Assembly (NCBI GenBank): GCA_024693845.1
Contig: JAILKJ010000081.1
Coordinates: 1-64,000 of the forward strand
Direction of reading: 5' to 3'
Source of the DNA: Lachnospiraceae bacterium
GTDB lineage: Bacteria; Bacillota; Clostridia; Lachnospirales; Lachnospiraceae
Length of the DNA stretch: 64,000 nt
Every line of letters starts with the position of its first letter. The stretch's first letter is position 1. This document shows, in pieces, positions 5,590 through 8,172 of the stretch. Under the pieces are notes generated by a model. It made no database searches. It saw only the letters and a program-made list of their open reading frames with translations, and was not told the DNA's origin. The position numbers and the translations under genes are program-made.

Positions 5590-6360
5590 TTACTGATATT
5601 TGGCAGCAGCTGCAAAATAGGCGATGGTCTGGATCAGCCACAATGCGGTAACAAGGATCATGGCAAACAATCCGGCGCCCGTAGCCGAGGAAACCACAAA
5701 GGCAAGAAGCCATGCGAAGCAGTACACTGTGCTCATAAGCTTATAGACATCGTAAGAGGATCTGTAAATGGTCATCCGTTCCGCTTCATCGCAGCTCTCG
5801 ATCCATTCCTTCTGGAATTTAAAATCCAGAATATTACCTTTCTTTTCCGGGTTCAGCTTCTTTTCCAGAGCGATCACTTTTCCCTGCAGGAGCATTTCCC
5901 AGACAAAGCTGAGGATGAAGGTCAGAAAGGCGATGCCGATACCGATGTTTTCCATCGTAGGCCCCTTCGTGAATTTAGTATCGATGGCAAAGGCTACGCC
6001 GAAAAAGAGGTAGTTTAAGATCATCATTACGGAAGGGATGATCAAAGGAGTGCTCAGTTTTTCTTCCAGTCGGGCGATCACTTCCTCATCCTCGCCATCC
6101 CAGGAATCTGCGGTTTTCCTGCAGCCGGCATACAGGCTAAAGCCGGTGATACAAAAGATGCAGTTCAGAAGCAGTGCCGCATAAGGCATAACCCGGATCG
6201 CGGCGTCGCAAAGCGTATCGAACCGGTCTGTGATGCTCTGTGATGAGAACAGCCGCATGGCAATGCCTCCCACGAAGAATCCGATGATGATACTGATCAA
6301 TACGACCACGATAAAAATGATCGTAATAGTGCGGTTACTTTTTTCAGTTGTTTTTTTCAT
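5590..6360 (-). CDS. DUF3169-like membrane protein
   Basis: A 256-residue integral membrane protein. Hydrophobic segments are visible near residues 10-35, 55-75, 105-125, 135-155 and two at the C-terminus (FAWLLAFVVSS and FAMILVTALWLIQTIAYF), with a charged loop containing KLNPEKKGNILDFKFQKEW. This agrees with the DUF3169 family, whose genes usually stand next to small XRE regulators, as here. The start at 6360 has GAGGAGG 6 bases upstream. It overlaps the end of the XRE gene by 17 bases, so translation is probably coupled. Role unknown; the family is often suspected of stress or antimicrobial response. Confidence 0.75.
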   Translation of the reverse strand: MKKTTEKSNRTITIIFIVVVLISIIIGFFVGGIAMRLFSSQSITDRFDTLCDAAIRVMPYAALLLNCIFCITGFSLYAGCRKTADSWDGEDEEVIARLEEKLSTPLIIPSVMMILNYLFFGVAFAIDTKFTKGPTMENIGIGIAFLTFILSFVWEMLLQGKVIALEKKLNPEKKGNILDFKFQKEWIESCDEAERMTIYRSSYDVYKLMSTVYCFAWLLAFVVSSATGAGLFAMILVTALWLIQTIAYFAAAAKYQ

Positions 6361-6568: not shown

Positions 6569-7216
6569 CTACCTCCTGTCCCTGTCTGTTTTGGCCCGGG
6601 CCGTGGTCATTCCGAAGCAGGAAGAAAAGCACACGCCGAAGCAGATCCCCAGAGCAACGCTTTTGAAGACCGTTCCCCACAGGCAGGCCATACCGACGAA
6701 GATGAGAAGGTTATAGATCACCTGGCTCATGCCCTTAATGCCTTCCTTTACAAAGATCCTTGTGTCCTCGAAATAGGCTTCCTTTGCCTGGCCTGCACCC
6801 ACAAGATCTTCAAGATGGGAGAGCACTATTTCATCGAAAAACTCTTCGTCCTCTTTGTATTCCGGCAGGATGAATTTGTCGGTAAGCTCATAGGTATCGG
6901 GAGAGTTGGCAAAGAGCGCCTCCAGTCCCTTTTTCTGTTCCGGCTCACCTGCAATGCGCCTAAGGATCGCTATGGCGATGAGCTCCTTCTTCTTTGCCAC
7001 CTTTTTGTACATGGCGTATACGATGCCCGCGTCATGATAGGTCTTCTTTCCGTTGCTGTCCACAAAGGGCGTCAGCACTTCCTGCATTTTGGCCATGAGC
7101 TCTTCCTTCGGTAAAAGAGCCTCGAAGCTGTCAAAGTTTTCTCTCTTTAAAACATACTTGGAGATCTGGGTAAAGCTGCATCCTTTTCCTTTTCTATCGG
7201 TCTTGTTATCTGCCAT
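6569..7216 (-). CDS. Unknown protein with two C-terminal hydrophobic segments
   Basis: A 215-residue protein and the first gene of the leftward operon. Residues 1-150 are charged and predicted soluble (KELIAIAILRRIAGEP, LPEYKEDEEFFDEIV). The C-terminus has a hydrophobic stretch (VIYNLLIFVGMACLWGTVF) followed by a glycine/cysteine-rich one (ALGICFGVCFSSCFGM), so it is likely a membrane-anchored protein facing the cytoplasm. The ATG at 7216 with GGAGG 8 bases upstream is chosen over the earlier ATG at 7237, which has no ribosome binding site. It is co-transcribed with the XRE regulator and DUF3169 protein. I do not recognise the family. Confidence 0.7.
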   Translation of the reverse strand: MADNKTDRKGKGCSFTQISKYVLKRENFDSFEALLPKEELMAKMQEVLTPFVDSNGKKTYHDAGIVYAMYKKVAKKKELIAIAILRRIAGEPEQKKGLEALFANSPDTYELTDKFILPEYKEDEEFFDEIVLSHLEDLVGAGQAKEAYFEDTRIFVKEGIKGMSQVIYNLLIFVGMACLWGTVFKSVALGICFGVCFSSCFGMTTARAKTDRDRR

Positions 7217-7256: not shown

Positions 7257-7360
7257 TGACAAGGTTTCATTTCACTCTGACAACAATCGATTTCATTTTG
7301 ACAAGTATCGTTGTCATTCCTCTGTGATGCCAATATTATCACTGACAAGAATACTTGTCA
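7257..7360. promoter_or_regulatory. Array of four TGACAA-N6-half-site operator-like repeats
   Basis: Four 18-bp sites begin with TGACAA: 7257-7274, 7278-7295, 7299-7316 and 7343-7360. The last two are full dyads, TGACAA-N6-TTGTCA. The first two have the degenerate right half ATTTCA at the same spacing. The first three start exactly 21 bp apart and the fourth 44 bp further on, close to two and four helical turns, so they lie on one face of the DNA. They fill the region between the leftward XRE operon and the rightward methyltransferase and overlap the upstream edge of the latter's promoter. This is what a cooperative repressor or activator site array looks like. Confidence 0.85.
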
Positions 7361-7371
7361 ATACTTTTTTG

Positions 7372-7380
7372 TGATATAAT
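7372..7380 (+). promoter_or_regulatory. Extended -10 promoter of the methyltransferase gene
   Basis: TGATATAAT at 7372-7380 is a consensus extended -10 element, 33 bases before the ATG at 7414. No good -35 is visible; that position is taken by the right half of the fourth TGACAA/TTGTCA dyad, so the bound regulator would touch RNA polymerase. Confidence 0.65.
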
Positions 7381-7413: not shown

Positions 7414-8172
7414 ATGGAATTTCGAAGAGTATTTGATACGATACCGGAGCAGTTTGACAAGTACAGGGTGCGTTACAGCAGTGAGGTTTTTGATTCTATT
7501 ATCGAATATGCGAAGATAGGACCGGGCAGATCGGTGCTGGAGCTGGGTCCCGGCACGGGGCAGGCCACGGAGCCTGTTCTGAATACCGGCTGTGATTATC
7601 ATGCCATAGAGCTGGGAGAGAATCTGTATGCCAAGATGGTGGAAAAGTACGGTCACCTTGCTAACTTTTCCATTGTGAACGATGATTTCATTACCCACGA
7701 TTTCGGGGATGAGAAGTTTGATATGATCTATTCCGCAGCCACGATCCAATGGATCCCGGAACAGATCGCTTTTTCCAAGACATTTGAGCTCCTAAAGCCC
7801 GGCGGAACGCTGGCCATGATCCTTTGCATCGGGGATTACAAAACACCGAACGAAAAGCTGTATGCGAAGATCCAGAAGGTCTATGACGAGTACTTCAAGC
7901 CGGATACGGTGTATGAGTACGGCGGCTTTCGTTATCAGGCGGCAACGGAATACGGTTATACGGATTTTGAAAAAAGAGAGTTTTACGCCGTAAGAGAGAT
8001 GGAACTGGAAGATTATGTGGCCTTCTGCGGAACCCACTGTGATCACATCGTGCTTTCGGAGCCCTACAGGAGCAGGTTCTATGAGGGGATCCGTGAGGCC
8101 GTGATTCAGGAGGGCGGAAAGGTGGTATTCAACGATACCTATGTATTGTATCTGGCAAAAAAGCCGGAATGA
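7414..8172 (+). CDS. Class I SAM-dependent methyltransferase
   Basis: A 252-residue cytoplasmic methyltransferase. Motif I is VLELGPGTGQATEP near residue 40; the acidic residue after the second strand is in YHAIELGENL; motif IV is FDMIYSAATIQWIP near 100, and LKPGGTLAMI follows near 130. This is the usual Rossmann-type fold with an N-terminal substrate cap (FDTIPEQFDKYRVRY). The acceptor substrate is not shown by the sequence; the relatives are trans-aconitate or small-molecule methyltransferases of the Methyltransf_11/25 groups. GGAGAG precedes the ATG. It is transcribed divergently from the XRE/DUF3169 operon and shares its operator-rich control region. Confidence 0.88.
   Translation: MEFRRVFDTIPEQFDKYRVRYSSEVFDSIIEYAKIGPGRSVLELGPGTGQATEPVLNTGCDYHAIELGENLYAKMVEKYGHLANFSIVNDDFITHDFGDEKFDMIYSAATIQWIPEQIAFSKTFELLKPGGTLAMILCIGDYKTPNEKLYAKIQKVYDEYFKPDTVYEYGGFRYQAATEYGYTDFEKREFYAVREMELEDYVAFCGTHCDHIVLSEPYRSRFYEGIREAVIQEGGKVVFNDTYVLYLAKKPE

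Follow-up and report, generated by a model that had tools for sequence, protein, structure and literature searches.

The window, the whole 64-kb stretch of DNA analysed here, carries a membrane-protein operon and a divergent neighbour:

6569..7216, minus strand: first operon gene, encoding a 215-aa protein with two predicted C-terminal transmembrane helices
6344..6565, minus strand: gene for a 73-aa XRE repressor, AyrR-like (HTH_3, 3.4e-16)
5590..6360, minus strand: gene for a 256-aa DUF3169 membrane protein, AyrA-like (DUF3169, 1.1e-55)
7414..8172, plus strand: gene for a 252-aa class I SAM methyltransferase, divergent neighbour of the operon

The 215-aa protein has no match to any Pfam or NCBIfam family, and among 60 related genomes searched only two, both of the same genus, encode homologs (74-79% identity). 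The closest solved structure to the 73-aa XRE protein is CylR2 (1utx, E 1.5e-11), and 1per was also matched. Within the genome, the next best match to this protein is 45% identical, and no TGACAA-N6-TTGTCA site accompanies its nearest XRE paralogs. The end of the XRE gene overlaps the DUF3169 gene by 17 bp, and the operon ends with the latter. Hydropathy peaks predict six transmembrane helices in the DUF3169 protein, with a DEAE motif at residues 191-194, between helices 4 (135-153) and 5 (205-223), in which D191 and E192 are invariant across 74 sequences. The AlphaFold model of this protein is all-helical (pLDDT 86), and a search of it against PDB structures returned no significant fold match.

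Four 18-bp sites, named O1 to O4, lie between the operon and the methyltransferase gene, together with two predicted promoter elements:

7372..7380, plus strand: predicted extended -10 of the methyltransferase, TGATATAAT, read from the sequence and not returned by a promoter consensus scan
7333..7361, minus strand: predicted sigma-70 promoter of the XRE operon (TTGACA at 7361-7356, 17-nt spacer, TAATAT at 7338-7333), from the promoter consensus scan
7343..7360: O1, minus strand TGACAAGTATTCTTGTCA, forward TGACAAGAATACTTGTCA; perfect dyad
7299..7316: O2, minus strand TGACAACGATACTTGTCA, forward TGACAAGTATCGTTGTCA; perfect dyad, 44 bp operon-downstream of O1
7278..7295: O3, minus strand TGAAATCGATTGTTGTCA, forward TGACAACAATCGATTTCA; promoter-proximal half degenerate, 21 bp from O2
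7257..7274: O4, minus strand TGAAATGAAACCTTGTCA, forward TGACAAGGTTTCATTTCA; promoter-proximal half degenerate, 21 bp from O3

The consensus common to all four is TGACAA-N6-TTGTCA, perfect in O1 and O2 and with one degenerate half in each of O3 and O4. The earlier note on this DNA had described four TGACAA sites at these positions, two perfect and two altered, with starts 21, 21 and 44 bp apart, and this description is accurate. Its further claim that all four face one side of the helix is only approximately true: O2-O4 follow one another at 21-bp steps, whereas O1, the fourth site, stands about 70 degrees off the other three because, with 10.5 bp to a turn, 44 bp corresponds to 4.19 turns. 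The exact dyad is seen twice in the window, against 0.01 expected, and none of 100 shuffles contained at least two. With the altered half written as WTKTCA, the pattern returns exactly O1-O4 and no other match in the window (0.02 expected), and no further exact TGACAA-N6-TTGTCA is present elsewhere in the 2.53-Mb assembly.

In operon direction, along the minus strand, O1 comes first and is followed by the -10, a predicted transcription start near 7326, O2, O3, O4 and the genes, with O2 placed just past the predicted start. The T at 7361 and the start of O1 together form the -35 hexamer TTGACA of the XRE operon. The methyltransferase promoter has no good -35 and appears as an extended -10; because this element likely lies at 7372-7380, O1 also covers the methyltransferase -35 region. 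The last site had earlier been assigned to the -35 position of the methyltransferase. It does span that region, but the best explanation of its position is an overlap with the XRE operon -35.

Whether the array belongs to the operon or to its neighbour can be judged from related genomes. Two of the same genus (G003 and G004) have the same three genes, perfect O1 and O2 sites 44 bp apart, and also two half-degenerate sites at 21-bp steps. Beside the operon, G003 has a divergent TtcA-like gene and G004 a PnuC-like gene that is co-directional. In G006, a CAAX-protease gene, XRE and DUF3169 stand behind two dyads 34 bp apart. G006 and G001 encode homologs of the methyltransferase (66-73% identity), and the DNA fetched around these contains no site. 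Since the neighbours differ and the methyltransferase homologs are without sites, the array goes with the operon and not with the methyltransferase.

The proposal of the earlier note, a switch linking the methyltransferase to the membrane operon, is therefore not conserved. A single regulator deliberately controlling both promoters would fit the coverage of the methyltransferase -35 region by O1 and the position of all sites between the two divergent genes. However, the same-genus operons keep the array beside a TtcA-like or PnuC-like gene instead, and homologs of the methyltransferase from two same-genus genomes have no site in the DNA fetched, which makes such a two-way switch unlikely. Any effect on the methyltransferase is probably incidental, arising from the coverage of its -35 region by O1. 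Meaningful control of this gene by the array is accordingly doubtful, and it is unlikely to be a conserved member of the regulon.

Scanning GTDB genomes with four aligned XRE proteins, with the XRE sequence as the sole criterion, gave 80 loci that span Lachnospiraceae, Oscillospiraceae, Ruminococcus, Faecalibacterium and others. A perfect TGACAA-N6-TTGTCA lies upstream of the XRE gene in 80/80, a count that, like the others drawn from this set, does not represent independent trials because the loci share ancestry. When all 6-mer dyads with spacers of 0-12 were compared, TGACAA-N6-TTGTCA ranked first (80 loci), followed by its own shifted versions, and unrelated dyads reached at most 13. Missing sites upstream of orthologous operons had been named beforehand as grounds for giving up the idea; this check was run, and the sites were kept at all 80 loci. 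A DUF3169 match was found in 74/74 scanned proteins encoded after XRE, comprising that of the window and 73 from related loci.

The arrangement of the sites is also conserved. O1 overlaps a TTGACA -35 in 77 of the 80 loci, with a 17-bp promoter spacer in 66 of these 77. Among 73 loci with both O1 and O2, the spacing between them is 31-35 bp in 57 and 39-44 bp in 15, with none at 36-38 bp, and the two clusters differ by about one helical turn. A TTGTCA half-site occurs at O2+21 in 48/73 loci (55/73 if one mismatch is allowed), and its partner, the left half of O3, is frequently degenerate, as it is in the window. An equivalent of O4 is present in the same-genus orthologs and rare elsewhere (6/73 loci).

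Two further features of these promoters were observed. The six-base spacers of O1 and O2 have the mirrored consensus sequences CTWTCC and GGAWAG (L017-L096, 73 loci with O1 and O2), which makes the whole promoter an imperfect palindrome of roughly 51 bp with its centre near the -10. Covariation of the two spacers within a locus was considered and failed, with 133 of 2000 shuffles reaching the observed value. Separately, in nine loci (L054, L055, L063, L069, L074, L081, L095, L147 and L149) O1 is preceded, at a distance of 25-26 bp, by an extra dyad whose phase differs from that of O1 by about half a helical turn.

A reciprocal test used the paired-site pattern, as DNA only, in 391 Clostridia genomes, with the reversed pattern as control. 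Besides the window's own, the paired site was found in 8/391 genomes and the reversed control in none. All paired sites adjoin XRE-DUF3169 except one in G604, located at an ABC exporter promoter. In this exception (L145:1501-1549), the pair is 31 bp apart and overlaps the promoter of an ABC ATPase and PF16962 exporter. G604 also carries XRE-DUF3169 behind its own site pair (L152), and the L145 exporter is likely a distant regulon member. Among 200 genomes of the family, XRE was present at 5/5 pair loci read versus 2/25 single-site loci read. Isolated single dyads were thus set aside as operators, being mostly chance occurrences; for instance, a single dyad in same-genus G005 falls inside an unrelated DtxR-like gene.

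These searches bear on which protein recognises the sites. The 73-residue XRE protein had been put forward as the likely binder, and both directions of search support this: every locus fetched by its XRE protein has the dyad (80/80), and paired-site searches lead back to XRE-DUF3169. In one genome a site pair occurs at the promoter of an ABC exporter, apart from the XRE gene, as might be expected if a different regulator, encoded elsewhere, bound the sites and the XRE gene were merely one target. Yet the site accompanies XRE at all 80 loci although first genes and neighbours vary, searches for pairs that took no account of XRE lead to XRE, and the genome with the distant exporter site also has XRE (L152). 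A different regulator is therefore very improbable.

Even less probable is that the repeats act as hairpins in a leader RNA and not as DNA operators. O2-O4 do lie in the predicted leader, and the dyad could form a six-pair stem. However, O1 has the same dyad and precedes the predicted start, compensatory changes would be tolerated in a stem where the arms are invariant, and the left arm of O3 is degenerate in many loci. Across the loci, O1 and O2 have at most one deviating locus per arm column while the spacer varies, and invariant arms around a variable spacer fit recognition by a protein. A reading of the array as nothing more than clustered -35-like TTGACA motifs with no regulatory meaning can be practically dismissed: the -35 consensus includes TGACA, and one -35 is indeed overlapped by O1, but the dyads are perfect, O2 and O3 stand at preferred spacings past the start and are conserved across families, the conserved O2 is not a -35, and the two exact dyads far exceed chance expectation in the window.

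Together, the conserved placement of the sites and their association with XRE point to the array being the operator of the 73-residue XRE protein of the adjacent operon, an AyrR-type repressor, a reading to which we assign a probability of roughly 0.85. On the same sequence evidence, autorepression by the XRE protein through the array is very likely. In the proposed mechanism, XRE dimers would bind TGACAA-N6-TTGTCA, and one dimer at O1 over the -35 box and one at O2 past the start would keep RNA polymerase off, with O3 and O4 serving as additional, weaker sites in the leader. The operon would in this way be self-repressing. On the analogy of AyrA, the DUF3169 protein with its six helices, which is co-transcribed, may sense a problem at the membrane or in secretion, for instance uncleaved preproteins, and sensing would lead it to relieve repression. 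That the DUF3169 partner relieves repression under membrane or secretion stress is favoured somewhat over the contrary by this analogy.

The protein pair has a characterised counterpart. Its members in Staphylococcus aureus are AyrA, the DUF3169 protein, and AyrR, a Cro/CI-like repressor of ayrRABC, and AyrA is required for derepression of ayrRABC when uncleaved preproteins accumulate (PMC5727409). AyrA has six membrane helices, of which the fourth and fifth flank a D-E(a/g)E motif (PMC5727409). The window shares with this system a small Cro/CI-like repressor gene directly upstream of a DUF3169 gene, the six predicted helices and the D-E(a/g)E motif between helices 4 and 5 of the DUF3169 protein, and an operator upstream of its own operon, predicted in the window from O1 and O2 at the promoter. 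Likewise, staphylococcus-like relatives carry a TGAC[AT]A-N6-TTGTCA dyad. The two systems differ in that the window operon is without an AyrBC-type ABC transporter (some related operons carry ABC-2 exporters), begins with the extra 215-aa membrane protein, and has four sites versus one main site. Because ayrRA without ayrBC has been noted in other species (PMC5727409), the presence of AyrBC defines the full ayrRABC operon and not the AyrR-AyrA pair.

Other repressors offer partial parallels. In Enterococcus faecalis, CylR2 is likewise a small XRE repressor working with a membrane protein, CylR1 (PMC3709268). However, CylR1 is described with three predicted transmembrane helices and not as DUF3169, and the system controls a lantibiotic toxin operon, whereas the partner in the window belongs to DUF3169 and has six predicted helices. 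Among the genes next to the window operon, none was recognised as a lantibiotic gene. The window XRE protein also shares its HTH class with the phage 434 repressor (1per matched), which differs in being a phage immunity repressor with a separate C-terminal dimerisation domain. The core of phage 434 operators, ACAA-N6-TTGT, is contained as the inner part in every perfect TGACAA-N6-TTGTCA site. The two recognition-helix glutamines of the 434 repressor presumably correspond to Q30 and Q34 of the XRE protein.

The site is also found beyond Clostridia. XRE-DUF3169 loci of the Bacillus family have the same dyad with a more divergent XRE, and staphylococcus-like loci, again with a more divergent XRE, have TTTTGAC[AT]A-N6-TTGTCAAAATGAC about 63 bp upstream of the gene (staphylococcus-like, Paenibacillus-like and Streptococcus-like are group names inferred from protein and genome features). 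No near dyad was found at 10 Paenibacillus-like and 5 Streptococcus-like DUF3169-linked XRE genes; these 15 cases indicate that the code is not universal for DUF3169 partners and that other codes exist. Ten Paenibacillus-like loci (L188-L191, L198, L199, L202, L204, L205 and L208) share the conserved upstream stretch TTTTGTATATTATAGTTTACATTTAG, which is perhaps a different operator.

Published genetics in S. aureus may bear on the staphylococcus-like site. A G-to-A change 62 bp upstream of cro/cI, one among several routes to signal peptidase inhibitor resistance in this species, gave a resistance that was not complemented by the wild-type repressor, and was interpreted by its authors as an operator mutation (PMC5013292). 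The G of TGAC (dyad base 2) is at -62 in 11 of the 22 staphylococcus-like loci with a site, and at -61, -63 or -64 in the others. Judged on these loci of close relatives, there is a strong hint that the published -62 mutation maps to the dyad. A natural S. aureus variant at -67/-68 falls just outside the dyad as placed in the staphylococcus-like relatives.

At most loci only XRE and DUF3169 are clearly in one operon. Other operons behind the dyad include Rce1-like CAAX proteases (L013, L020, L021, L028, L056 and L077), M50 or DUF3267 peptidase-like proteins (L024, L063 and L081), and ABC-2 exporters or their ATPases (L021, L036 and L052). The recurrence of membrane proteases and ABC exporters suggests a membrane or secretion stress regulon. 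It is about an even chance that AyrR-AyrA serves Clostridia and Bacilli as a general membrane-stress switch that has a single operator code in common and interchangeable membrane quality-control modules as its outputs. The modules proposed in this reading, on equally balanced odds, are CAAX-type proteases, M50/DUF3267 proteases, ABC exporters and, in this genus, the 215-aa membrane protein.

The earlier note knew of no described regulon with this site. The protein pair itself is known from S. aureus as AyrR-AyrA (PMC5727409), although no description of a TGACAA-N6-TTGTCA operator consensus was found in the literature searched, mostly without subscription journals. With the protein pair already known, the main value of the present analysis is a searchable operator code. 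The S. aureus authors suggested that ayrRA may be a pair of general use, by which membrane signals are coupled to transcription (PMC5727409). This idea becomes directly testable with a shared operator for which any genome can be searched, and the same operator offers a way to find the targets of a little-studied membrane-stress switch. In gut and rumen Clostridia, whose secretion stress is to our knowledge little understood, the operator code already points to membrane proteases and exporters as outputs.
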